Origin: Paraburkholderia phytofirmans PsJN
Lineage (GTDB): Bacteria; Pseudomonadota; Gammaproteobacteria; Burkholderiales; Burkholderiaceae
Direction: 5' to 3'
NCBI RefSeq assembly: GCF_000020125.1
Contig: NC_010681.1
Coordinates: 4,216,001 to 4,280,000 of the forward strand
DNA: 64,000 nt
In this document: positions 8,563 through 28,020 of the stretch, in pieces
How the letters are laid out: every line of letters starts with the position of its first letter
Position numbering within the stretch: the stretch's first letter is position 1
The notes under the pieces: generated by a model
Seen by the model: the letters and a program-made list of their open reading frames with translations, nothing else
Databases searched by the model: none
Told to the model about the DNA's origin: nothing
Made by a program: the position numbers and the translations under genes

Positions 8563-10205
8563 AGCCGACGCTCGAAGAGATCCGCGCCAGCGACCTGACG
8601 CCGCTCGAACGCGAACTGGCGCTGGCGTCCTTCGGCGCCGAAGCGCTTGCGGAAGAACCGGCTGCGGTGACACCCGCGGCGGCGGCCGTCGCGGCAATCG
8701 AAGCCGCCTTGCGCGATCCGGCGCATGCCCATCCAGCGACGGGCGCCGCCGCGAGCCGCGATGCCGCCGCGGCGAGCCCTGCTTCCGCCGCCGTCGCTCA
8801 CCCGCCTTACGATCCCGCGCTCGACAGCAACCCGCACATGCAAGCGTGGCGCGGCCGCCTCGACGCACTGCGCGCGCGCAATGCGATCGCCAAGCCGATG
8901 CGTGCCTGTGGACGTCTCACGCGCGCGGCCGGTCTGGTGCTCGAAGCCGTGGGCCTGCGTCTGTCCGTGGGCGCCGAAGTGATGATCGAACTGCCGCAAG
9001 GCAGTTCGCTGCCGATGGCCGAAGCCGAAGTAGTCGGCTTCTCCGGCGACAAGCTGTTTCTGATGCCGACCACCGAAGTGATCGGCCTCCTCCCCGGCGC
9101 GCGCGTTTTTCCGCTCGAAAGCGCGCCGATCGCCGATCCGATGGCGGGCGCCAAACGTCTGCCGGTCGGTTGGGAATTGCTCGGCCGCGTGCTGGATGCC
9201 TCCGGCCGTCCGCTCGACGGACTCGGCCCGCTCGGCGCGCATGCCGACGCCCCGCTGTCCGCGCCGGTCATCAATCCGCTGAACCGCGAACCGATTCACA
9301 AGGTGCTCGACGTCGGCGTGCGCGCGATCAACGCATTGTTGACCGTCGGCCGTGGCCAGCGCATGGGGTTGTTCGCCGGCTCGGGCGTCGGTAAATCGGT
9401 GCTGCTCGGCACGATGGCGCGCTACACCAGCGCCGAAGTGATTGTGATCGGCCTGATCGGCGAACGCGGCCGCGAAGTGAAGGAATTCATCGAGCAGATT
9501 CTCGGCGAGGAAGGTCTGGCGCGCTCCGTGGTGATCGCCGCGCCCGCTGACGTCTCGCCGCTGCTGCGCATGCAGGCCGCATCGTATTCGACCTCGCTTG
9601 CTGAATATTTTCGCGACCAGGGCAAGCACGTGCTGCTGCTGATGGACTCGCTGACCCGTTACGCGATGGCGCAGCGCGAGATCGCGCTGGCCGTGGGCGA
9701 GCCGCCTGCTACCAAGGGCTATCCGCCTTCGGTGTTCGCCAAGCTGCCGGCGCTCGTCGAGCGGACCGGCAACGGCCCGGCGGGCGGCGGCTCGATCACG
9801 GCGTTCTATACGGTGCTGACTGAAGGCGACGACCAGCAGGATCCGATCGCCGACTCGGCGCGGGCGATTCTGGACGGTCACATCGTGCTGTCGCGCTCGC
9901 TGGCTGAAGCCGGTCACTATCCGGCCATCGACATCGAAGCGTCGATTAGCCGGGCAATGACCGCGCTGATCGACGATAACCATCTGGACAAGACGCGTAT
10001 GTTCAAGCAGATGCTGTCGCGCTATCAGCGCAACCGCGATCTGATCAACGTCGGCGCGTATTCAAGCGGGCGCGACGCGCTGCTCGACCGCGCGATTGCG
10101 TTGTATCCGCGGATGGAAGCCTTTTTGCAGCAAGGTTTTCGCGAATGCGCGAACTTTGAACCGAGTCTCGAGATGCTGGACGCGCTGTTTGCCCAAGGAG
10201 GCTGA
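8556..10205 (+). CDS. fliI: Flagellum-specific export ATPase FliI
   Basis: 549 residues, F1-beta-like hexameric ATPase that releases chaperones and primes export substrates. The Walker A loop is GSGVGKS at residues 275-281 with K280, the next strand ends [12 protein letters not shown], and Walker B is [19 protein letters not shown], with [14 protein letters not shown] further on. The P-loop lysine lies about 90 residues further from the N-terminus than in Salmonella FliI. The extra sequence is an Ala/Pro-rich stretch around residues 28-90, between the N-terminal FliH-binding helix and the barrel. It overlaps fliH by seven bases. Confidence 0.96.
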
Positions 10206-10207
10206 CG

Positions 10208-10657
10208 ATGGCGAAACACTTTCCGATCAAGACGCTTATCGGCCTGGCTCAGGACGATGTGGACGCCGCCGCGCAACGTCTGGGCCGCGCACAGCGTGAG
10301 CGCAACGACGTGCAGTCGCAGCTCGACGCCCTCGTCCAGTACCGCGACGAATATCACGCGCGCTTCACCGCGACGGCCCAGACCGGCATGCCTGCGGGGA
10401 ACATGCGCAATTTCCAGGCATTCATCGATACGCTCGACGCCGCCATCGAGCAGCAGCGCAATTTGCTGGTGACGGCCAACGCGCGCGTCGAGGCCGCCAA
10501 GCCCGACTGGCAGCGTCAGAAGCAGAAGCTGGGCTCGTACGAAGTGCTGCAGGCGCGCGGCGAAGCAGCCGAAGCCAAAACCACGGCGCGGCGCGATCAG
10601 CGCGACGCCGACGAACACGCCGCCCGGATTCTGCGGATGCGCGCCGAAGGCGTGTGA
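10208..10657 (+). CDS. fliJ: Flagellar export chaperone-escort protein FliJ
   Basis: 149 residues, almost entirely coiled coil (LAQDDVDAAAQRLGRAQRERNDVQSQL and so on), as expected for FliJ, the stalk-like subunit that sits in the FliI hexamer, contacts FlhA and recycles late chaperones. The sequence family is weak, but position directly after fliI, size and the IKTLIGLAQDDVDAAAQRL opening support the call. It starts three bases after the fliI stop, so it is translationally coupled. Confidence 0.9.
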   Translation: MAKHFPIKTLIGLAQDDVDAAAQRLGRAQRERNDVQSQLDALVQYRDEYHARFTATAQTGMPAGNMRNFQAFIDTLDAAIEQQRNLLVTANARVEAAKPDWQRQKQKLGSYEVLQARGEAAEAKTTARRDQRDADEHAARILRMRAEGV

Positions 10658-17405: not shown

Positions 17406-18629
17406 TCAGCTCAGGTACTGAAACAGCGAGATATTCTGAATCTTCGCGAACGCCTGCTGCGCCGCTTGCAGCGCAGCCTGCGTCATCGTGTACTTGCCGA
17501 TTGTCTTGACCATGTCGGTCTGCGTCAGATCCGCAAGATTGCTCGACGTCTGCAGCGTGTTGGTCTGCGTGACCGTCTGCAATGCCTGCACTTCCTGCTC
17601 GCGACCGCCCACGGCCGCTTGCGCCGTCACGACGTTGTTCATCGTGTTCTCGAGCTGGGTCATGCTGGTGGTCAGCGCGCTCTGGAAGCTCGCCGTCGAC
17701 GCGCCGCCCGACACCGGCGTTTGCAAAGTGGTGATCAGCTGGCTCAGGTTGGCGAACACATCCATGCTGCCTTGCGTGGCCGGCGTCACGCTAAAGCTGT
17801 CGCCCGCGTTCGGCGCGCCGGTGATCGACACCGACTGGCCGCCGAGCGTGATCGCCGACCCGGCCGTGAACGCTTGCGGCGCGCTCGTGGTCACCGCGCC
17901 GGTAGCCGGATCGGTCTGGCTCACGGTATAGGTGGTCGCGGACGAGAAGTTGATCGAATACTTGTCGGCGTTGGTCGGATCGGTCGGATTGGTCAGGCTT
18001 ACCTGGCTGATCACGCCCGTGCCGGTGTTGCCGGTCGTCGCGGCCGGCACGGCGCTGGTGCCGATAGGCGCAACGCTGCCGAAGATCGCAATGCCGTTGT
18101 CGCCGGTCTGCACCACGTGCGAATCCGTAACCTGCACGCCGGGCGTGCCGGTGTCGCCGGAATAGGTCACGACGCCGGCCGAATTCGTGGTGTACGGCTG
18201 CGCGCTGCTTTGATAACCGGCGAACAGGTAGTTGCCCTGCGGGTCGGTCGAATTGGCGAGCGTCATCAGCTGGCTGCGCAGGCTTTGCAGTTGCGTCGCG
18301 ATCGAACCGCGGTCGCCGTCGTTCAGCGAACCGTCGCCGGCGCGCAGCACCAGCGTATGAATGGTTTGCAGCACCGTATTGACGCTGCCGAGCGTGGTGT
18401 CTTCCTGTTGCAGCGAGGCGAGCGCAGTGCCCTGATTGGTCGTGTATTGCGACAGGGTCGTCGCTGTCGAGCTCAACTGCACGGCCTGCGCCGCGCCGAG
18501 CGGATTGTCCGACGGCGTGGAAAGGCTCACGCCGCTCGAAATCTCGGCATACAACTGCGACAACTGAGCTTGCTGATCGCTCATCGTCGCGACGTTCATA
18601 TTGAAGTACTGCGTGCTGGAGATGCGCAT
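17406..18629 (-). CDS. flgL: Hook-filament junction protein FlgL (HAP3)
   Basis: 407 residues; enteric FlgL is nearer 317. FlgL is the second of two junction proteins between hook and filament. The N-terminal D0/D1 helices are typical (MRISSTQYFNMNVATMSDQQAQLSQLYAEISSG), as is the C-terminal helix (NLADLTQTDMVKTIGKYTMTQAALQAAQQAF). The extra length is mainly a Thr/Gly-rich insert at about residues 200-283 (YSINFSSATTYTVSQ, then VSITGAPNAGDSFSVTP), which resembles inserts in FlgE and FlgK here. ATG 18629 is preferred to an in-frame TTG at 18635. It follows flgK by ten bases. Confidence 0.95.
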   Translation of the reverse strand: MRISSTQYFNMNVATMSDQQAQLSQLYAEISSGVSLSTPSDNPLGAAQAVQLSSTATTLSQYTTNQGTALASLQQEDTTLGSVNTVLQTIHTLVLRAGDGSLNDGDRGSIATQLQSLRSQLMTLANSTDPQGNYLFAGYQSSAQPYTTNSAGVVTYSGDTGTPGVQVTDSHVVQTGDNGIAIFGSVAPIGTSAVPAATTGNTGTGVISQVSLTNPTDPTNADKYSINFSSATTYTVSQTDPATGAVTTSAPQAFTAGSAITLGGQSVSITGAPNAGDSFSVTPATQGSMDVFANLSQLITTLQTPVSGGASTASFQSALTTSMTQLENTMNNVVTAQAAVGGREQEVQALQTVTQTNTLQTSSNLADLTQTDMVKTIGKYTMTQAALQAAQQAFAKIQNISLFQYLS

Positions 18630-18639
18630 TGTCAACGCC

Positions 18640-20613
18640 TCACTGGAAGATGCCGAGTATCGTCTGGAACAGGGTCTGCGCGGTCTGGATGACCTTGCTG
18701 TTCGCCTGATACAGCTGCTGATACTGAAGCAGGTTGGCTGCTTCTTCGTTGATGTTCACGCCCGAAACCGACTGCTGCGCGGTGGTGATCTGCGTCACCA
18801 GCGAGCTTTGCGCGGTGCTCGACGTCTGAATCTGGTTGGTCTGGTTGCCGATATTGTTGACGTAGTTCGCGTACGCGCCCGTCAGCGTGACCGTGCCGCC
18901 CGCCAGCGCTTTCGCGGTGGACAGATTCGACAGCGCCAGCGCGTTGCGACCATCGTTGGTCGCGCCGGTGTTCGGGCCGATGGTGAACTTGTCGCCGGCG
19001 GCCGGTGCGCCGCTGATCGTCACCGAAACATTGTTCATCTGGCCGGCGGTCGCGTTGTTGATCGTCAGCGTGGCGCCGGTGGCCGACGAATACGGCACCA
19101 CGGTCGCCGCACTGGCGATGGTGTACGTGGTGGCGGGGGAACCGGCCACCGTCACCGTCGAACCGACCGGGAAGCCGGACAGCCCCGTGCCGTCGTACGA
19201 GAGCGTGGTGGTCGAATTCGGCATGGTGTAGCCGGCCGTTACCGTGCCCTGCGTGATCGTGCCGGTGCCGGTGTTGCTCGATGCGGCGGCGCCCAGCACG
19301 GGCGCGGCGGCGGCGATCGCCGAGGCGTCGGTGGTGGCGGTCGCGAAGCTGTTGAGCGCGCCGCGGGTCGGCTCGACCGTGAACGAATCGCCGGCATTCA
19401 TCGTGCCGGTGGTCGAAAAATTCAGGCCGTTGATCGGCTGGCTCAGGTTGGTCGCCGAACCCACCACACTGCCCGTCGAATTGTCGGTCAGCGTGTACGT
19501 GGTGCCGTTGTAGGCCAGCGTGTAGTCGCCGGTGGTCGGCTGTGCGGGATTCGCGAACGACACGTTCAGCGACGCGTTGCCGGTGTTCTGCGTGTTCGCA
19601 TAAACAGTCGGGCCGCCCACCGAGAACAGCGCGCCACCCTTGGCGCCGGCCAGCGTGATGCCCAGTCCGTTTTGCGCGTTGACCTGCGCGGAGAAGCTCA
19701 CGGCGATCGCGCCGAGTTGCGCCTCGCCCGGATCGAGCGTCTGGCTGCGAAACGCGAGCAGACCGCCGAGCGTGCCGCCGTCGATCTTGCTGTCGGGCAG
19801 GTTTTGCGGCGCGGCCGCCGGATTCGCACCCGCCTGGCCGAGGTACTGAACGGACAATTCGCTGGTGTCGCCGGTCGAAGGCGCAGTGCCCAGGTTATAG
19901 CTGTTGCCGGAGGACACCAGCGGCTGGCCGTTGCTCATAAAGACGCTGTAGCTGCCGTTGCTGTTCACCACATTCACGCCGATCAGTTGCGACAGATTCG
20001 ACACGGCGAGATCGCGCTGATCCATCAACTGATTCGGCGGCTGGCCTTGCGTGCTGGCCTGAGTAATCTGGCCGTTCAACTGCGCGATCTGCTGCGTGTA
20101 GCTGTTGATCTGCGAAACGGTGTTGGTGAGCTGCGTGTTGACGCTCTGGCGCAGCGCATCGTACTGCTGACCCGCGGCGTTGATCTGGTTCACCAGCGTC
20201 TGCGCGCCGCTCATCGCGGTCTGGCGCGTGGCCAGGCTCGACGCGTTGTTCGAGACGTTCTGCAAACCGGTGAAGTAGCTGGTGATCGCGCTCGCAATCC
20301 CGGCGGTCGGGCTGCCGATCAGATTGTTCAGTTGCGAAATCAACGTGTTGTACGTCGATAGCGAGCTGCCCGAACTCTGCGCGTTGTTCAGCTCAGTGGT
20401 CAGATACTGGCTGTACTGGCGCGTCACGGTCGTGGTCGAGACGCCTTGCGGCAGATAGCCCGAGCCCGTGTACTGGCCGCCGCTTTCCGCATACACCGGC
20501 GTTTCGATGGTGTAGCCGGGCGTCGACGCGTTGCTGATGTTCTGGCCGGTCGTCGTGAGTCCCCACTGGGCTGCGTTCAGTCCACTGAGGCCGAGATTGA
20601 TGAGATTGGACAT
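18640..20613 (-). CDS. flgK: Hook-filament junction protein FlgK (HAP1)
   Basis: 657 residues; about 110 longer than enteric FlgK. FlgK is the first junction protein assembled on the hook. The N-terminus NLGLSGLNAAQWGLTTTGQNISNASTPGY and the C-terminus VSGVNINEEAANLLQYQQLYQANSKVIQTAQ are conserved. Two Thr/Gly-rich inserts at about residues 342-415 and 447-547 share the TTYTL and ITG-P-AGDSF(T/S)V pattern also seen in FlgL and FlgE. A sigma-28-type promoter lies 58 bases upstream, so flgKL is a late operon. Confidence 0.96.
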   Translation of the reverse strand: MSNLINLGLSGLNAAQWGLTTTGQNISNASTPGYTIETPVYAESGGQYTGSGYLPQGVSTTTVTRQYSQYLTTELNNAQSSGSSLSTYNTLISQLNNLIGSPTAGIASAITSYFTGLQNVSNNASSLATRQTAMSGAQTLVNQINAAGQQYDALRQSVNTQLTNTVSQINSYTQQIAQLNGQITQASTQGQPPNQLMDQRDLAVSNLSQLIGVNVVNSNGSYSVFMSNGQPLVSSGNSYNLGTAPSTGDTSELSVQYLGQAGANPAAAPQNLPDSKIDGGTLGGLLAFRSQTLDPGEAQLGAIAVSFSAQVNAQNGLGITLAGAKGGALFSVGGPTVYANTQNTGNASLNVSFANPAQPTTGDYTLAYNGTTYTLTDNSTGSVVGSATNLSQPINGLNFSTTGTMNAGDSFTVEPTRGALNSFATATTDASAIAAAAPVLGAAASSNTGTGTITQGTVTAGYTMPNSTTTLSYDGTGLSGFPVGSTVTVAGSPATTYTIASAATVVPYSSATGATLTINNATAGQMNNVSVTISGAPAAGDKFTIGPNTGATNDGRNALALSNLSTAKALAGGTVTLTGAYANYVNNIGNQTNQIQTSSTAQSSLVTQITTAQQSVSGVNINEEAANLLQYQQLYQANSKVIQTAQTLFQTILGIFQ

Positions 20614-20670
20614 GCGTCATCCTGAAGGGCGACACCGTACACATGCCGCCGCGTTACTTGAACATCTTGT

Positions 20671-20697
20671 TTAACGGCCTCAACTGGCAAAAATTGA
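20671..20697 (-). promoter_or_regulatory. Sigma-28 (FliA)-type promoter for flgKL
   Basis: On the minus strand TCAA (20697-20694), exactly 15 nt, then GCCGTTAA (20678-20671): the enteric TAAA-N15-GCCGATAA geometry with a T-to-A change at the -10 centre. A CCTCAA/TTGAGG inverted repeat spans the -35 end (20679-20699). The remaining gap up to ycgR (20882) shows nothing else. Confidence 0.7.
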
Positions 20698-20881
20698 GGT
20701 CATTCCGATGCGTGTTCGACGTTTGTTTCAACGTTTGCGAGGCTTGACTGCCGGACTTGTCATTCGTCGCGCAATGAGGCGCGCCGGTGCGGAAAACAGG
20801 TGACAAGGAAGTGACGATGAACCGGCAGGCACACACGATGCGCGAGCAATCCGCCCACGCACCGCGAATTCGACATTTCAA

Positions 20882-21655
20882 TCAGCGCACCAGCGAACGG
20901 CGCTTCATCTCGAGCTGCGTGATCAGACGTTGCAGCGTGTTTTCCGCGCTGCCAGGCAGCGTCAGAAAACGGAAGCCGAGCTGGTAACGCTGCGTGCCGT
21001 TCGGCAGCGCAGTGGAGCGATGCGACACGAGTTGCAGATCGAGCGAGAGCCGGCCGAGCGCGCCGAGCACCAGCTCGCAATCGAGCAGGCGCGTGCCCAT
21101 CGGCAATTCGGCCACGCGTTCGTCGGCGGTGCGCATGCCGACGCCGCCAAGCGACAGGTCGTGCACCTCGAAGCGGAACGTGTCGCCTTCGGGCAAACGG
21201 CCGGAGCATACGTACGGATCGAGAATCGGCGCATCGACGCGGAAGTACTCGCGGCGCTGCACGTAGAACAGCACCTCGGGGAAGTCGGCCTCGAACGCGG
21301 GCAGTCCTTCAAAGCGCGTCTCGCGCGGCGTGGCGGTGGCGAATTCCACGCGCACGCCGTCCGGCTGCGCGTGGAACTGGCAGCGCGGTGCGCCCAGCAA
21401 GCCCCGGTTCTGATCGGACAAGGCGCCCCAATCGAACGTGAAAGTGCGCCCGCGCACGTCGACTTCGAGCAGACGCGTGACGAGCTGTCCGCCGGCATAT
21501 TGAACGGTGAGGAAATCGCCGCGATTGACGAGATTGCGCAACTGAACGCCAATCTCCAGCGGATTGCGACGGCCAAAATCGTTGCCGCCTTCGGCTGTCT
21601 GAGCGTGCAACTGGCCTTGTGTGTCGGTCTGGCCGTTCGACTGGGTAGTATCCAT
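20882..21655 (-). CDS. ycgR: c-di-GMP-binding flagellar brake protein YcgR
   Basis: 257 residues. The N-terminal YcgR domain (NPLEIGVQLRNLVNRGDFLTVQY) is followed by a PilZ domain with both c-di-GMP-binding motifs: RREYFR and, further on, DLSLGGVG. Bound to c-di-GMP, YcgR contacts the flagellar rotor/stator and slows or biases the motor. ATG 21655 (MDTTQSNG) gives the family length; the frame extends upstream without homology. It has its own sigma-28-type promoter, so the brake is made with late motility genes. Confidence 0.9.
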   Translation of the reverse strand: MDTTQSNGQTDTQGQLHAQTAEGGNDFGRRNPLEIGVQLRNLVNRGDFLTVQYAGGQLVTRLLEVDVRGRTFTFDWGALSDQNRGLLGAPRCQFHAQPDGVRVEFATATPRETRFEGLPAFEADFPEVLFYVQRREYFRVDAPILDPYVCSGRLPEGDTFRFEVHDLSLGGVGMRTADERVAELPMGTRLLDCELVLGALGRLSLDLQLVSHRSTALPNGTQRYQLGFRFLTLPGSAENTLQRLITQLEMKRRSLVR

Positions 21656-21790
21656 GGGCTTGCCGGTATGCTTGTTCTTGCGGGCGCGTGCCAGAGCTCC
21701 TGTCGGGGCTTTCGCGCGGTCTTCATCGAAGCCGCAGCACGCGCATCCCACCCGGACATTACAACGCTTTCCGGTATCGGGTCTAACTGA

Positions 21791-21817
21791 TTAGCGGCAG
21801 TATCGGTCCAAAATTTA
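21791..21817 (-). promoter_or_regulatory. Sigma-28 (FliA)-type promoter for ycgR
   Basis: On the minus strand TAAA (21817-21814), exactly 15 nt, then GCCGCTAA (21798-21791). It lies about 135 bases upstream of ATG 21655 in the 337-base flgJ-ycgR gap and points at ycgR. Confidence 0.65.
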
Positions 21818-21878
21818 GGGGCCGGTCATGAATTATTTGCCGCAAACGTTAAAACGCACCGTCTCTTTCGCGGGTGGA

Positions 21879-21900
21879 CCGGCCGCCCATGGGCGGCCGG
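21879..21900 (-). terminator. Perfect GC-rich palindrome, likely terminator of the flgB-flgJ operon
   Basis: A 22-base perfect palindrome (CCGGCCGCCC, AT centre, then its complement) about 93 bases beyond the flgJ stop. There is no clear U-run, so a factor-dependent stop or mRNA end stabiliser is also possible. The rest of the gap holds the ycgR promoter. Confidence 0.5.
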
Positions 21901-21992
21901 CCTCGTCCGTCTTGTTATGCACCTGGCCCCGTCGCGTGCATGCTTTTGATTCGATCAAATGATCAGGCGATTCGAACCGCTGCCACGGCGGG

Positions 21993-22991
21993 TCAGCCCA
22001 TCTTCTGCATGATGGACATCAGTTTTTTCGCGTAGTGCGGGTCGGTCGCGTAACCGGCGCGCTGCATGCCGTTGGCAAAGCCGTTCACGTCATGCGCCGA
22101 ATTGATCACCTGCGCGTAACGCGGATTGCCCTTGAGCAGGCTCGCGTAATCGGTCATGGCTTCCTGATACGAGTCGTACGCGCGGAATTTTTCCACAACG
22201 CGCTGCGGCTTGCCGTTCACGTATTCGGTCGTGACCGTCGACACGGTCTTGCCCGTCCAGTCCTTGGTCGCCTTGATGCCGAACACGTTGTGGCTGGTCG
22301 AGCCGTCCGTCTTCTTGATCTCGCTCTTGCCCCAGCCGGATTCGAGTGCCGCCTGGCCGATGATGAAGCGCGCCGGAATGCCGGTCGCCGCGCTGGCGGC
22401 CTGCGCCGGTTGGGCGAGCTTATCGACGAAAGCGTCGACCTTCGGCGAGCTGCCGTCGCCCTTGAGCGGCGGAGTCAGCGCGCTGTTGGCCGAGTAGCCT
22501 TTGCCCATCGCCAGCTGGCCGTTGGCCTGCGCGTTGCCGTACGCTTTGGCGAGCGCGTTCAGCGCTGCGGTCTGGCCTTCATCGCCACCGCTGCCGCCGC
22601 CCAACGCGTTGGCCATGCCGGCCAGGCCACCCGCGCCGCCCGCACCGCCGCCTACCTGCATGCCCTGATTGCGCATCAGCTGCTTGAGCATGGCGTCCGC
22701 CACGCCAATGCCCTTTTGCGACATCTGTTGCGACAACTGCTGATCCATCATCGACGTGAAGGTGGCGCTGTCGTGCGAATCGAACGGGCCGTCTTGCGGC
22801 GTCGCGTCGCGCATGCTTTTGAGCATCATCTGCGTGAACACCGCGTCGAACTGCTGCGCGGCCATCTTCATGCCGGCTTGCGGAGATGCCTTGGCCTGCG
22901 CGCTCAGCTTCGCGAAGCCCTGCACGTCGAGCGCGAAGCGCTGGGTCAGGTCGTTCGCCGAAGCGGCGGAATTGGTCGTATCCGAATTCAT
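21993..22991 (-). CDS. flgJ: Flagellar rod assembly protein / peptidoglycan hydrolase FlgJ
   Basis: 332 residues. The N-terminal rod-binding domain (residues ~20-110) includes AAQQFDAVFTQMMLKSMRDATPQDGPFDS. A Gly-rich linker follows. The C-terminal glucosaminidase domain carries IPARFIIGQAALESGWGKSEI, with the catalytic glutamate in ALESGWG, then FGIKATKDW and KFRAYDSYQEAMTDYASLL. The hydrolase opens the murein so the rod can cross the periplasm. It is the last gene of the minus-strand flgBCDEFGHIJ run. Confidence 0.96.
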   Translation of the reverse strand: MNSDTTNSAASANDLTQRFALDVQGFAKLSAQAKASPQAGMKMAAQQFDAVFTQMMLKSMRDATPQDGPFDSHDSATFTSMMDQQLSQQMSQKGIGVADAMLKQLMRNQGMQVGGGAGGAGGLAGMANALGGGSGGDEGQTAALNALAKAYGNAQANGQLAMGKGYSANSALTPPLKGDGSSPKVDAFVDKLAQPAQAASAATGIPARFIIGQAALESGWGKSEIKKTDGSTSHNVFGIKATKDWTGKTVSTVTTEYVNGKPQRVVEKFRAYDSYQEAMTDYASLLKGNPRYAQVINSAHDVNGFANGMQRAGYATDPHYAKKLMSIMQKMG

Positions 22992-23003
22992 CCTGTGTCT
23001 TCC

Positions 23004-24191
23004 TTAGATGATTTCCAGGTCGGCGCGCAGAGCGCCCGCCGCTTTCATCGCCTGCAGGATCGACATCAGATCCGCGGGCGTCGCACCTAATGCGTTGAGC
23101 GCCTTCACCACTTCGGCGAGATTGGCGCCGGCGGTCACCAGCTTCAGTGCACCGTTGTCCTGCTTCATCTGAATCTGCGACTGCTTGGCCACCACCGTCT
23201 GACCGTTCGAGAACGCGCCAGGCTGGCTCACCACCGGCTGCGTATTGATCACCACCGAGAGGTTGCCGTGCGCTACTGCGCAGTTCTGGAGCGTGACCAT
23301 CTGATTCATCACGATCGAGCCGGTGCGCGCGTTCAGGATCACCTTCGCGGCGGCTTGCGCCGGCTTGACGTCGAGGTTCTGCAATTGCGCCATGAAGGCG
23401 ACCTGCTGCTCCGGATCGCTCGGCGCGCGCAGTTGAATCGTGCGGCCGTCGAGCGCGGTGGCCGTGCCGCCGCCGAATGCGTTGTTGACCGCCGCCACCA
23501 CACGCTGCGTGGTGTCGTAGTCCATGTCGTTGAGATCGAGCTGCATCGTGCCCGCTTGCGAGACCGAAGTCGGCACCGCGCGTTCGACGATCGCGCCGCC
23601 GGCGATGCGGCCCGCGGCCAGCGTGTTGACTTGCACCTTGCTGCCGTTGGCGCTCGCGCCAGCGCCGCCGACCGCGAGATTGCCTTGGCCGAGCGCATAC
23701 ACCTGGCCGTCGGCGCCCTTCAGCGGCGTGAGCAGCAGCGTGCCGCCGCGCAGGCTCTTGGCGTTACCGAGCGACGACACGGTCACGTCGATCTGTTCGC
23801 CGGGACGCGCGAACGGCGGCAGCACCGCCGTCACCATCACCGCGGCGACGTTCTTCAACTGGATGTTCGACAGCGACGATTGCGAATTGCTCGAACCCGC
23901 CGCCTGGTTGTTGATCGAGATGCCGAGGTTCGCCAGCATGTTGGCGAGCGTCTGCGTGGTGAACGGCGTTTGCGTGGTCTGGTCGCCCGTGCCGTCGAGG
24001 CCGACGACGAGGCCGTAGCCGATCAGCGGATTGTCGCGCACGCCCTGGATCTGCACGAGGTCCTTCAGGCGTTCGGCATAGGCAGGCGTGGCCGCCGGCA
24101 GCGCCGCGCAGGCAAGCGCGACGAAGGCGAGCGCGCGGCCGAAACCGGCGAGGCGGGCGCGGATGCGTGCACGGAAGAATACGTTACGCAT
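23004..24191 (-). CDS. flgI: Flagellar P-ring protein FlgI
   Basis: 395 residues. A cleavable signal peptide ends [10 protein letters not shown], and the mature protein opens with [31 protein letters not shown], the FlgI hallmark. The C-terminus [30 protein letters not shown] is typical. FlgI forms the peptidoglycan-level bushing around the rod and needs the FlgA chaperone. ATG 24191 sits right after the flgH stop; a GTG at 24200 would overlap flgH and is a possible alternative. Confidence 0.96.
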
Positions 24192-24193
24192 GA

Positions 24194-24898
24194 TCACCAC
24201 GGCGACACGTTGAGGAAGAAGCGCTGCAGGAAGCCCATATTCTCGGATTCGTCGATATAGCCCTTCGCGGAATATTCGATCTTCGCGTCGGCCACCTGGG
24301 TCGAGTACACGGCGTTCAGGTTGGAGATCGTGTTGGGATTCACCACACCTGAAAAGCGCACGAATTCATTGCCCTGATTGATCAGCATCTGCTTCTCGCC
24401 GCTCACCATCAAATTCCCGTTCGGCAGCACGCCGGTCACCGTGACGGTGATCACGCCGCTGAACGTGTTCGACGCGTTCGCGCCACCCGTCGCCGCGAAC
24501 TTGTTGGCACCGTTCGCGCTCAGGTTGACCTTGCCGAACAGACCGCCGAGAAAGCCGGCGGTCGGCACGTCGAAGTTGGTGTTGCCGCTGCGGTTGACGC
24601 CCGCGCCCGAGGACTTGGTCGCGTTGACGTTTTCCTGGATGACGATCGTCAGGATGTCGCCGACATTGCGCGGCCGCTGGTCTTCGAACAACGGACGCCC
24701 CGCGTAACCCGGGTTGTAGATCGAGCCCGGCGACTGCGCCGACGGCGGCATCGGCGGCAGCGCAGTCATCGGTTGCTGCGTGATGGGCTGCTTCGGCACG
24801 AGGCCGCAGCCACCCAGGGCCGCGAGCAGCGTGAGCTGCACGAGCGCCTGAGCGGTGCGCGAATGAACCGGATTACGAGAGAAGTGCGACATCATCAT
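24194..24898 (-). CDS. flgH: Flagellar L-ring lipoprotein FlgH
   Basis: 234 residues. A lipoprotein signal ends in LLAALGGC with the lipidated cysteine at about residue 31. The body contains [41 protein letters not shown] and [22 protein letters not shown], typical of FlgH, which forms the outer-membrane bushing of the basal body. Three consecutive ATG codons occur at the start (24898, 24895, 24892); which one is used is open. Confidence 0.96.
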
Positions 24899-24928
24899 TA
24901 CCGCCTGTTAATTCCAGTCCCTTGAACC

Positions 24929-25717
24929 TTAGACCTGCATCTGGCTCAGGGTCTGCAGCATCTGGTCGGAGGTGGTCACGGCCTTGCTGTTGATTTCGTA
25001 AGCGCGTTGCGTCTGGATCATGTTCACCAGTTCCTGCACCACGTTCACGTTCGATGCTTCCACGTAGCCCTGATTCAGCGTGCCGGCGCCGTTCAGGCCC
25101 GGCTGCGCGACGTTCGGCGCGCCCGACGAAGCGGTCTCCGCGAACAGGTTTTCACCCTTCGCATCCAGACCGGCCGGGTTGATGAACGTGGCGATCTGCA
25201 TCGAGCCGAGCTGCTGGCTGTTGGTCGAACCGGCCACGGTGATCGACACCACGCCGTCGCTGCCGATGGTGAGCGAGGTCGCGTTGTTCGGGATCGTGAT
25301 CGCCGGAATCACCTGGTAGCCGCTCGACGTCACGAGCTGACCCTGGGCATTGGTCTGGAACGAACCGTCGCGTGTGTAGGCGGTCGTGCCGTCGGGCATC
25401 TGCACCTGGAAAAAGCCCTGGCCGTTGATGGCGACGTCTTTCGAGTTGCCGGTCTGCTGCAGGTTGCCCTGCGTGTACAGACGTTCGGTGGCGACCTGTT
25501 GCACACCCGTGCCGAGCTGGATGCCGGACGGCAGTTCGGTGTTCTGCGTCGAGTTCGCGCCCGGCTGGCGGACGGTCTGATACAGCAGATCCTCGAACAC
25601 CGCGCGCGAGCCCTTGAAGCCGTTGGTGCTGACGTTCGCGAGGTTGTTCGAGATCACGTCCATCTGCGCCTGTTGCGCATTCATGCCGGTGGCGGCGATG
25701 TAGAGTGAGCGATTCAT
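24929..25717 (-). CDS. flgG: Flagellar distal rod protein FlgG
   Basis: 262 residues, normal length. FlgG builds the distal rod. The N-terminal helix region [46 protein letters not shown] is diagnostic, as is the C-terminal [34 protein letters not shown]. An AGGAAA ribosome-binding site precedes the ATG. It lies between flgF and flgH in the rod/hook operon. Confidence 0.98.
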
Positions 25718-25729
25718 GGTTGTTTCCTG

Positions 25730-26488
25730 TTAGCTAAAGCTGAGCAGCTGGTTGGCGGACTGATCGTTCTTGTCGGCGCTTTCCAGCAGCTTGGTCTGCA
25801 TCTGGAACTGGCGCGCGTTGGTGATCATCGAAACCATCGCGCTGACCGGATTCACGTTGCTGCCTTCGAGCGAGGCCGGCGCAAGCGTGACGGCCGGATC
25901 GGCGTCGGCGGCATTGCCGTCGGCGGTGCGAAAGAGGCCGTCGTCGCCGCGCGTCATGGTTTGCGGATCCGGATTCACCAGCTTCAGCTGATCGACCGTC
26001 ACCACCGCCGTGGGCGGATCGCCCGGCGTCAGGGCGGACACTGTGCCGTCCTTGCCGATGGTGATTTCCGCGCCCGGCGGCACCGACACCGGACCGCCGT
26101 TGCCGAGCACCACCTGATTGGTGGCGTTCACCAGCTGGCCGTTTTCATCCACGTGCAGATTGCCGGCGCGCGTGTAGGCCTCGCCGCCGTCGGCGGTTTG
26201 CACCGCCAGCCAGCCCGGCCCCTGAATCGCCACATCGAGCGGGTTGCCCGTCTGCTGGATCGGCCCGGGCGTGTAGTCCGCACCCGGCGTCGACGACAGC
26301 ACGAAGGTGCGGGTGGTGTTGTCGTTGATCGAACTGCCGTCGCCGAACGACATCGGCACGGCGCGGAAAGTCGCCAGTTGCGCGCGAAAACCGGTGGTCG
26401 ATGCATTGGCCAGGTTGTTCGCGACGATTGCCTGCTGTTCGAGCGCTTGCGTGCTGCCCGACATCGCGGTGTAGATCAGCCGATCCAT
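25730..26488 (-). CDS. flgF: Flagellar proximal rod protein FlgF
   Basis: 252 residues. FlgF is one of the proximal rod proteins. It starts MDRLIYTAMSGSTQALEQQAIVANNLANASTTGFRAQL and ends with EGSNVNPVSAMVSMITNARQFQMQTKLLESADKNDQSANQLL, both family hallmarks. The frame stays open far upstream over flgE, so ATG 26488 was chosen on homology. The upstream part of that frame is a shadow of flgE. Confidence 0.97.
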   Translation of the reverse strand: MDRLIYTAMSGSTQALEQQAIVANNLANASTTGFRAQLATFRAVPMSFGDGSSINDNTTRTFVLSSTPGADYTPGPIQQTGNPLDVAIQGPGWLAVQTADGGEAYTRAGNLHVDENGQLVNATNQVVLGNGGPVSVPPGAEITIGKDGTVSALTPGDPPTAVVTVDQLKLVNPDPQTMTRGDDGLFRTADGNAADADPAVTLAPASLEGSNVNPVSAMVSMITNARQFQMQTKLLESADKNDQSANQLLSFS

Positions 26489-26508
26489 GGTGGGGGAGTC
26501 CCGGTCGC

Positions 26509-28020
26509 TTACAGGTTGATCAGGGTCTGGTCGACGGTCTGCTGGGTCTTGATCGTCTGCGCGTTCGCTTGATAGTTGCGTTGCGCGGTGATCAGGTTCA
26601 CCAGTTCGCTCGTCAGATCGACGTTCGAGTTTTCCACCGCGCCGCCTTGCAGCACGCCGTGGTTGGTCGAGCCCGGCGCGGAAATCTGCGCGACGCCCGA
26701 AGCCGAGGTCTGCTGGAACTCGTTGTTGCCCAGGTTCACGAGACCGTTCTGGTTCGAGAAATTCGCCAATGCGATCTGGCCGAGAGCCGCGGTTTGCCGG
26801 TTCGAATAGTTGCCGGTCAGCGTGCCGTCGGCGCCGATCGTGAAGCTCGTCAGCGTGCCGGCTTCGTAACCGTCGGGTTGCAGCGAATTCACGCCGTCCT
26901 TGCCGCCGTACTGCGTCGTGCCGGCAATGTTCAGCGTCAGTTGCTGCGGCGTCGACGAACCGTCGGTGGTCGGAATCGAGAAGTTGTAGGCGAACGGCGT
27001 GGTGGTCGCGACACCGGCTGCGTCGGTGGTGCTGAGCAGCGTGCCCGACGAGTTGAAGTTCGCGTGGCCGATCAGCTGTGCCGTGCCCGTCGACGTGCCT
27101 GCGTACACGTTCCATGCACCGGCCGCCGTCTTGGCGAAGTACATGTTGACCGTCTGCGAACCGCCGAGCGAGTCGTACACAGTCGTGCTGGTCGAGTAGT
27201 CGTACGTCGACGAGCTGTTCTGATTGAACGCCACCGGGGTCGGCGCGATTGCGACGCTGTCGCCGGTCGCCGGCGTGCCGTTGAGCGTGATGGTCTGACC
27301 GTTGCCGAGCGAGATCGCCGTGCCCGCCGTGTACGTTGCGGGTGCGGTCGTCGTGCCGAGCGTGGTGTCGGTGACCGTGTAGGTCGTCGGGCTCGTGAAG
27401 TTGACGGTGTAGTTGTCGTTGTTCGTGCCGGAAGCGGTGTTCGTGATGGTCGCGCCGGGCGTGGTCAGCGTGCTGCCCGCGACGAGCGCCGGCGTCACGG
27501 TCGGCGTGCCGAGCATCAGCGGGTCCTGCGCGTTCAGGTTCAGGCCGGCGACGATCTTGGTGGTCGCTTGCGGCGCGATGTTCGCGGTCGGCACGGTGAG
27601 CGGCACGGTCTGCGCGGTGTTGATGATGCCCGAGCTGTTGGCGGCGTAGCCCATCAACTGCAAGCCTTGCGCGTTGGTGATGAAGCCGTTCTTGTCGAGC
27701 TGGAACACGCCGTTGCGCGAGTACACCATCGAACCGTTATTCGACAGCTGGAAGAAGCCGTTGCCGTTGATCGCGACGTCGAGCGCCTGGTTGGTGCTGG
27801 TGATCGTGCCTTGCGAGAACTGCTGCTGCACTTCGGCGAGCTTGGTGCCGATGCCGACCTGGTTGCCTACCGCCGTCGCCACGGAATTGGCGTACATGTC
27901 GGCGAATTGCGCGGCGCCGCTCTTGAAGCCAACCGTATTCGCGTTGGCAATGTTGTTGCCGATCACGTCGAGGTCGCTCGACGATGCCGACAAACCACTC
28001 AAACCTTGTTGGTAACCCAT
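26509..28020 (-). CDS. flgE: Flagellar hook protein FlgE
   Basis: 503 residues; about 100 longer than enteric FlgE. FlgE polymerises into the hook. The N-terminus MGYQQGLSGLSASSSDLDVIGNNIANANTVGFKSGAAQFAD and C-terminus ENSNVDLTSELVNLITAQRNYQANAQTIKTQQTVDQTLINL are canonical. Much of the extra length is a Thr/Gly-rich block at about residues 188-260 (NYTVNFTSPTTYTV, then ITLNGTPATGDSVAIAP), which resembles blocks inserted in FlgK and FlgL. It probably lies in a surface-exposed domain. Confidence 0.97.
   Translation of the reverse strand: MGYQQGLSGLSASSSDLDVIGNNIANANTVGFKSGAAQFADMYANSVATAVGNQVGIGTKLAEVQQQFSQGTITSTNQALDVAINGNGFFQLSNNGSMVYSRNGVFQLDKNGFITNAQGLQLMGYAANSSGIINTAQTVPLTVPTANIAPQATTKIVAGLNLNAQDPLMLGTPTVTPALVAGSTLTTPGATITNTASGTNNDNYTVNFTSPTTYTVTDTTLGTTTAPATYTAGTAISLGNGQTITLNGTPATGDSVAIAPTPVAFNQNSSSTYDYSTSTTVYDSLGGSQTVNMYFAKTAAGAWNVYAGTSTGTAQLIGHANFNSSGTLLSTTDAAGVATTTPFAYNFSIPTTDGSSTPQQLTLNIAGTTQYGGKDGVNSLQPDGYEAGTLTSFTIGADGTLTGNYSNRQTAALGQIALANFSNQNGLVNLGNNEFQQTSASGVAQISAPGSTNHGVLQGGAVENSNVDLTSELVNLITAQRNYQANAQTIKTQQTVDQTLINL

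Follow-up and report, generated by a model that had tools for sequence, protein, structure and literature searches.

How does a flagellar hook protein come by an extra outer domain? To our knowledge, the origin of the extra hook-protein domains of some bacteria has not been traced, and we know of no named donor for those of Campylobacter and Caulobacter. The question is raised by a flagellar locus of Paraburkholderia phytofirmans PsJN, analysed here in a window of 64,000 nucleotides (NC_010681.1, positions 4,216,001-4,280,000, within a 4.47-Mb contig of the 8.2-Mb genome). An initial annotation had proposed that a related Thr/Gly-rich module occurs once in the junction protein FlgL, twice in the junction protein FlgK and once in the hook protein FlgE. 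In this study, we find that the four segments are copies of one beta-sandwich of 80-110 residues, the D2-type outer domain of the hook-filament junction. The copy in FlgE is very probably a captured FlgL-type D2, one of a series of captures that recur between flagellar proteins. The genes and modules are as follows (aa, amino acids).

17406..18635, minus strand: flgL, hook-filament junction protein, 409 aa as called (TIGR02550, 8e-84)
17772..18038, minus strand: FlgL residues 200-288, the D2 beta-sandwich (PF21158 match of E 0.0018, short of the cut-off; Legionella FlgL 5yti and 7c7z align across it; described as FlgL D2 in the cited part of PMC6155364)
18640..20613, minus strand: flgK, hook-filament junction protein, 657 aa (TIGR02492, 6e-92; B. 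pseudomallei FlgK 4ut1, 1e-236)
18964..19305, minus strand: FlgK residues 437-550, D3 module (PF21159, 3.7e-42; profile score 90 to FlgL D2 and 63 to FlgK D2)
19354..19602, minus strand: FlgK residues 338-420, D2 module (PF21158, 33.9 bits, above cut-off; common to Salmonella FlgK)
26509..28020, minus strand: flgE, encoding the 503-aa hook protein, which has an additional domain nested in it (NCBIfam NF004238, 2.2e-147; Pfam FlgE_D2 at 257-385, Flg_bbr_C, Flg_bb_rod and D1)
27235..27507, minus strand: FlgE residues 172-262, FlgL-type D2 beta-sandwich inserted within the D2 domain of the hook protein (unmatched in Pfam)

FlgE is the hook protein by equivalog (NF004238, 491.7 bits against a cut-off of 400), with Flg_bb_rod, D1, FlgE_D2 and Flg_bbr_C all present. 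Many FlgL relatives have 407 aa, which fits a start at the ATG two codons downstream of the called one. The spans first given for the module (17781-18032, 18973-19275, 19369-19590 and 27241-27459) translate in frame on the minus strand into the stretches described; they were located correctly, although the true domain edges are slightly wider.

Are the four segments related by descent? In Smith-Waterman comparisons of single sequences against 2000 shuffles, the pairs FlgL-FlgE (z 15.4), FlgL-FlgK D2 (11.3), FlgL-FlgK D3 (7.0), FlgK D2-FlgE (4.8) and FlgK D3-FlgE (4.5) were each matched by 0/2000 shuffles, and FlgK D2-FlgK D3 was weak (z 3.2, 12/2000 shuffles as high). Family profiles, built from 9 (FlgE) to 37 (FlgK D2) sequences and compared by hhalign, gave strong mutual matches for all six pairs: FlgL-FlgE 116 (E 1e-22), FlgL-FlgK D3 90, FlgL-FlgK D2 86, FlgE-FlgK D2 63, FlgK D2-D3 63 and FlgE-FlgK D3 50, the last alignment spanning just 34 columns (57 once the row of genome G063 was removed). 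When the columns of one partner were shuffled 60 times per pair, the maxima for eight pairs lay at 15 to 21 (never above 20.6) versus 46-120 observed. For the FlgE insert the similarity goes beyond composition, with 116 against a shuffle maximum of 15.4 for FlgL D2 and 63 against 20.6 for FlgK D2. Unrelated control profiles (FlgE D1, FlgE D2, FlgK D1b) scored 8-19. The idea that the FlgL-FlgK D3 link is an artefact of one swapped row was rejected, as the score without G063 was unchanged (90.3 v 90.1). The FlgL-FlgE likeness was seen even at the DNA level (score 54, codon-shuffle maximum 26); there, the other five pairs scored within, or one point over, the codon-shuffle maximum. At the level of sequence, these comparisons demonstrate homology and uphold the proposal of one related module in four places.

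The blocks are not a new domain family. That candidate was rejected, since three of them are FlgK D2, FlgK D3 and FlgL D2 (Pfam; cited parts of PMC6155364 and PMC5691160). PF21159 matched FlgK 437-550 with 143.8 bits (cut-off 24.7) across profile columns 1-116 of 116. For PF21158 (cut-off 24.2 bits), the window FlgK D2 lay above the cut-off at 33.9 and the window FlgL below it at 18.7, and no match was found in FlgE 172-262. All three proteins are longer than in Salmonella (FlgL 409 v 317, FlgK 657 v 553 and FlgE 503 v 403 aa), and one extra module per protein explains most of the difference. The supposition that all the blocks are extra over enteric proteins was rejected for the first FlgK block, because Salmonella FlgK has the same D2 (chain 9go6_A aligns through it). 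Duplication and spread of the module, also suggested at first, is best demonstrated for FlgE; the other three copies are published domains found well beyond the genus.

Does the FlgE insert share the fold, and where does it sit? Structure prediction was run for FlgE alone, and the fold of the FlgK and FlgL modules rests on solved relatives. The full-length model was poor outside its middle (mean predicted local distance difference test score 67), and only this middle part was used. In it, FlgE 172-262 is predicted to have the same fold as solved FlgL and FlgK D2 domains, matching along almost all of its length. The alignment with solved FlgE D2 domains covers model residues 149-387, which places the insert within hook D2 and outside the axial core, at about residues 165-169 of Salmonella FlgE. 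When the insert was searched by itself, the structural matches listed included neither Caulobacter nor Campylobacter FlgE, although their extra domains may still be related to it.

How common is the module in hook proteins? In a survey of the family, tblastn matched FlgE in 79/120 genomes. Among the aligned FlgE, 12/41 had the insert and 29/41 had none, and in many insert-free proteins the two tblastn parts (one ending at about 173, the other starting at about 259) adjoin. In Paraburkholderia, FlgE aligned end to end through the insert in 62/97 genomes, a hand count from the listing with part of the sequences inspected, and 2/97 were without any match; nearly all relatives of the window FlgE and FlgL at 90% identity or more that have an organism name are Paraburkholderia. 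We further scored open reading frames of at least 150 aa in 120 loci holding mainly flagellar clusters, in which some genomes are present twice. Here, 41 FlgE carried the module, 37 of the FlgL type (Paraburkholderia, four strains named Burkholderia sp., and genome G034) and four of the FlgK type (Cupriavidus). The module was found in no protein of these loci that scored poorly against the FlgE, FlgK and FlgL profiles (FlgF or FlgG would count with FlgE). The insert profile matched 114/369 genomes of the class, and in the 28 best-scoring loci from outside the family every module carrier was FlgL or FlgK. The module is thus common in junction proteins and rare in the hook as far as sampled, and therefore transfer into FlgE is favoured.

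In the window's own genome, the insert profile finds FlgE and FlgL at E 0.001 or better. PF21158 finds FlgK D2, FlgL, FlgK D3 (E 0.67) and one weak partial match with a TGA inside (G000:C3:2495647-2495778, E 0.4). An all-protein search with FlgE 186-262, which detects close relatives only, gave 65 matches; all those with a name are FlgE, flagellar hook-basal body or hypothetical proteins from Paraburkholderia or Burkholderia sp. The same genome has a second FlgE without the insert (G000:C3:2729572-2730801, a frame of 411 aa), and the surrounding stretch (L047) yielded neither flgK nor flgL. Five Paraburkholderia genomes (G075, G139, G141, G154, G206) have two FlgE genes each, both aligned through the insert. 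G034 (locus L041, genus code g14) has a FlgL-type insert in a FlgE whose core falls inside the Paraburkholderia carriers, a case of either gene transfer or genus placement. A different insert is present in the hook D2 region of FlgE in locus L071 of genome G017 (1061-2644, 527 aa), with a weak Flagellin_IN match (E 0.0086, below cut-off).

Was the module gained by FlgE once or repeatedly? In Cupriavidus, 5/60 genomes have a FlgE insert, at the same site as in Paraburkholderia. Its profile (three sequences) scored 120 with FlgK D2, 46 with FlgL D2 and 42 with the Paraburkholderia insert. The inserts of G233 and G242 matched the FlgK D2 profile with 68 and 50 bits, and the FlgL profile with no listed match and 20 bits, respectively. 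PF21158 was above its cut-off in three Cupriavidus FlgE, and in an alignment of 28 FlgE (A2; 23 with the FlgL type, two Cupriavidus with the FlgK type, three without) it matched two, both from Cupriavidus. In a tree of 114 modules, the Paraburkholderia FlgE inserts formed one group (96/92) among Burkholderiaceae FlgL D2 (94/98), and the Cupriavidus FlgE inserts grouped with Cupriavidus FlgK D2 (97/85). A shared origin of both inserts as one clade was rejected (p 0.004, log-likelihood difference 51); a single origin of the Cupriavidus inserts was neither demonstrated nor rejected (p 0.33). In the tree of the FlgE core, with the module removed, the 15 FlgL-type carriers require one change, next to an insert-free sister group (G085, G151, G192, G161). 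These results demonstrate different affinities of the two FlgE inserts. The insert-free Cupriavidus G240 is identical to carrier G115 at 470/479 bases before the site and 616/682 after it, and therefore the gain or loss there was probably recent.

Exchange appears to have reached FlgK as well. In genus code g12, probably Burkholderia, the D3 position of FlgK is occupied by a FlgL-type module in G063 and G032. These modules scored 98.7 and 97.4 bits with the FlgL-type profile and 46.8 and 48.7 with the D3 profile (neither genome contributed to the profiles), versus 118-129 with D3 and 21-26 with the FlgL type for the ordinary D3 of three other FlgK. Searching with the module of G032 revealed, in 24/65 g12 genomes, a pair of matches separated by 1.2 to 1.5 kb, as FlgK plus FlgL would give; the first match was at least 81% identical in 20 of these and 60-66%, hence less sure, in four. 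Judged from these sequence matches, with the G063 and G032 sequences being those read, a FlgL-type copy appears to have replaced FlgK D3 in 20-24/65 g12 genomes. Modules also occur in tandem: FlgL has two D2 modules in L063 (G072; 8808-10343, 511 aa) and three in L071 (9784-11646, 620 aa), and FlgK of L146, a metagenome-assembled genome of Rhodocyclaceae (946 aa), has five in a row, one of D2 type and four of D3 type.

We therefore consider it likely that hook and junction proteins share outer domains that act as exchangeable cassettes, with at least three separate moves among flgE, flgK and flgL in one family besides the tandem copies: one site in FlgE would have taken up a FlgL-type module in one case and a FlgK-type module in another, and FlgK D3 would have given way to a FlgL-type module. 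FlgK D2, FlgK D3 and FlgL D2 would be the older homes of the module. In a lineage of Paraburkholderia, a FlgL-type D2 would have been inserted in frame into the hook D2 loop, probably once, and then inherited; in Cupriavidus, that site of FlgE would have received a FlgK-type D2; and some members of a third genus would have had FlgK D3 replaced by a FlgL-type module. flgE, flgK and flgL lie in one gene cluster, and the acceptor architecture, a conserved core plus an outward loop with its ends close together, is likely tolerant. A compact domain, such a loop and a shared cluster may therefore allow copying by illegitimate or homeologous recombination without harm to export or assembly. If this is true, evolution of the hook surface proceeds through domains captured from the junction into a fixed acceptor loop.

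What the module does in the hook is a separate matter. It would project outward and make the hook surface thicker, and it may create additional contacts among subunits or where hook and junction meet. A diversifying surface decoration, in which the insert is a fast-evolving outer face for phage or host recognition or a carrier of glycans, is possible, and we put it forward tentatively. The median ratio of nonsynonymous to synonymous change (dN/dS) is 0.57 in the insert and 0.32 in the core, with dN 2.5 times and dS 1.3 times higher, and differing module types occur at one FlgE site and at FlgK D3. However, the 938 pairs are non-independent, the core average includes buried parts, the higher dS points to a less sure insert alignment, and the median stays below 1. 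The Thr/Ser fraction is 0.354 in nine inserts, 0.209 in the window FlgE core and 0.297 in FlgL D2. Thr/Ser richness and faster evolution fit an exposed surface; they demonstrate neither the glycosylation nor the antigenicity that had been suggested. Two FlgE pairs combine a nearly identical core with a much more different insert, L102-L093 (dN 0.285 in the insert, 0.014 in the core) and L117-L088 (insert dN/dS 1.57), a pattern in which replacement of the insert by recombination is possible.

Alternatively, the FlgE copy might have been selected to match the hook surface to the junction, with FlgE D3, FlgK D2 and FlgL D2 joined by quasi-homotypic contacts into one uninterrupted outer layer. D2 of FlgK and FlgL is exposed in the solved Salmonella junction as described in part of PMC12221982, and a section of PMC6155364 proposes quasi-homotypic FlgL-FlgK D2-D2 contacts for B. 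pseudomallei. We consider this explanation unlikely: two genera with different donors seemingly require no specific partner surface, and, in docking to the C. jejuni hook, the extra FlgE D3 seems to take up space that a Salmonella- or B. pseudomallei-type FlgK D2 would need, so that the two might clash instead of making contact (cited part of PMC5691160). Paraburkholderia carriers whose FlgK was included in the comparison keep FlgK D2 and D3, and therefore the FlgE module should sit elsewhere or contact FlgK.

A module ancestral in FlgE and lost in most lineages, with the two genera's inserts differing by mere divergence, is in our view improbable. The common site and the insert-free state beside carriers in Cupriavidus (G240) would suit it, as would the finer nesting, which is not significant (p 0.18 and 0.27). 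Against it stand the rejected single clade, the match of the two inserts to different donors, the restriction of module-bearing FlgE in the 120 loci to the carriers named above, and the FlgL or FlgK identity of all carriers in the best loci outside the family. Convergence or compositional bias among Thr/Gly-rich beta segments of exposed domains, to which the Thr/Ser-rich inserts and the weak FlgK D2-D3 similarity (z 3.2) might point, is extremely improbable given the low scores of same-composition shuffled profiles and of other domains of the same proteins and the fold agreement over nearly the whole length, and is rejected on present data for FlgL-FlgE and FlgL-FlgK D2.

Several observations weigh against the capture of junction modules by FlgE and FlgK. 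In approximately unbiased (AU) tests, neither a FlgL D2 clade excluding the FlgE inserts (p 0.27) nor a FlgK D2 clade excluding the Cupriavidus inserts (p 0.18) was rejected. The bootstrap of the 114-module tree had not settled; such trees are weak because the modules have only about 80 residues. The finer nesting of FlgE inserts within FlgL and FlgK modules is therefore favoured by the sequences, not proven. On the core tree the carrier clade has a support of just 87/69, and Cupriavidus needs two changes. A FlgK D3 clade including the G063 copy was not rejected either (AU, p 0.10), and therefore the D3 replacement rests on the profile scores. FlgL of the own genome was the best match for 1/9 FlgE inserts and in the top two for 3/9; the comparison therefore reveals no recent copy and identifies no donor genome. 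No trace of the recombination step was found. Among Foldseek matches of the insert in order of E-value, Wzc (3e-3; TM-score 0.55, lower than the 0.61-0.72 of the FlgL and FlgK matches) comes after Xanthomonas FlgL (4e-5) and before Legionella FlgL and FlgK (5e-3). Lastly, the role of the FlgE module is one that we infer by analogy. Recent copying or conversion between FlgE and FlgL within a genome was also considered and is unsupported, with a mean score of 152 within and 131 between genomes and most inserts closer to the FlgL of another genome.

With these points weighed, the capture of junction modules by FlgE can be set against what is described. The FlgL D2 sandwich, its likeness to FlgK D2 and the expectation that B. 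pseudomallei FlgL has one are given in part of PMC6155364, and a section of PMC5691160 reports that the D3 fold of B. pseudomallei FlgK is similar to its D2; three of the copies and their likeness are already known. The occurrence of the module in the hook protein, captured repeatedly and from different junction proteins, appears to be undescribed: a literature search found no account of it, a weak result as few subscription papers were covered. With a likely source to name, one acceptor site common to two genera and insert-free alleles in close relatives, the gain of outer domains by axial proteins becomes testable. Paraburkholderia partly has the domain and a sister lineage does not, thereby offering a natural comparison for the mechanical effect of an outer hook domain. 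Campylobacter FlgE D3/D4 and Caulobacter FlgE D3 are likewise extra domains beyond Salmonella D0-D2, and the two D3 domains reportedly differ between these genera (cited part of PMC5691160). Compared with FlgK D3 (PF21159), which is frequently longer (92-128 aa in the family and 209 in one case), the window FlgK 437-550 is an ordinary member that is profile-related to the other modules. FlgK D2 (PF21158; Salmonella 2d4y, B. pseudomallei 4ut1) is farther from the Paraburkholderia FlgE insert (63), which Pfam does not recognise, than FlgL D2 is (116). From FlgL D2 itself (Xanthomonas campestris 5ziz/5zj0; Legionella pneumophila 7c7z/5yti), the FlgE copy differs in its higher Thr/Ser content and in being nested in the hook D2 of another core.
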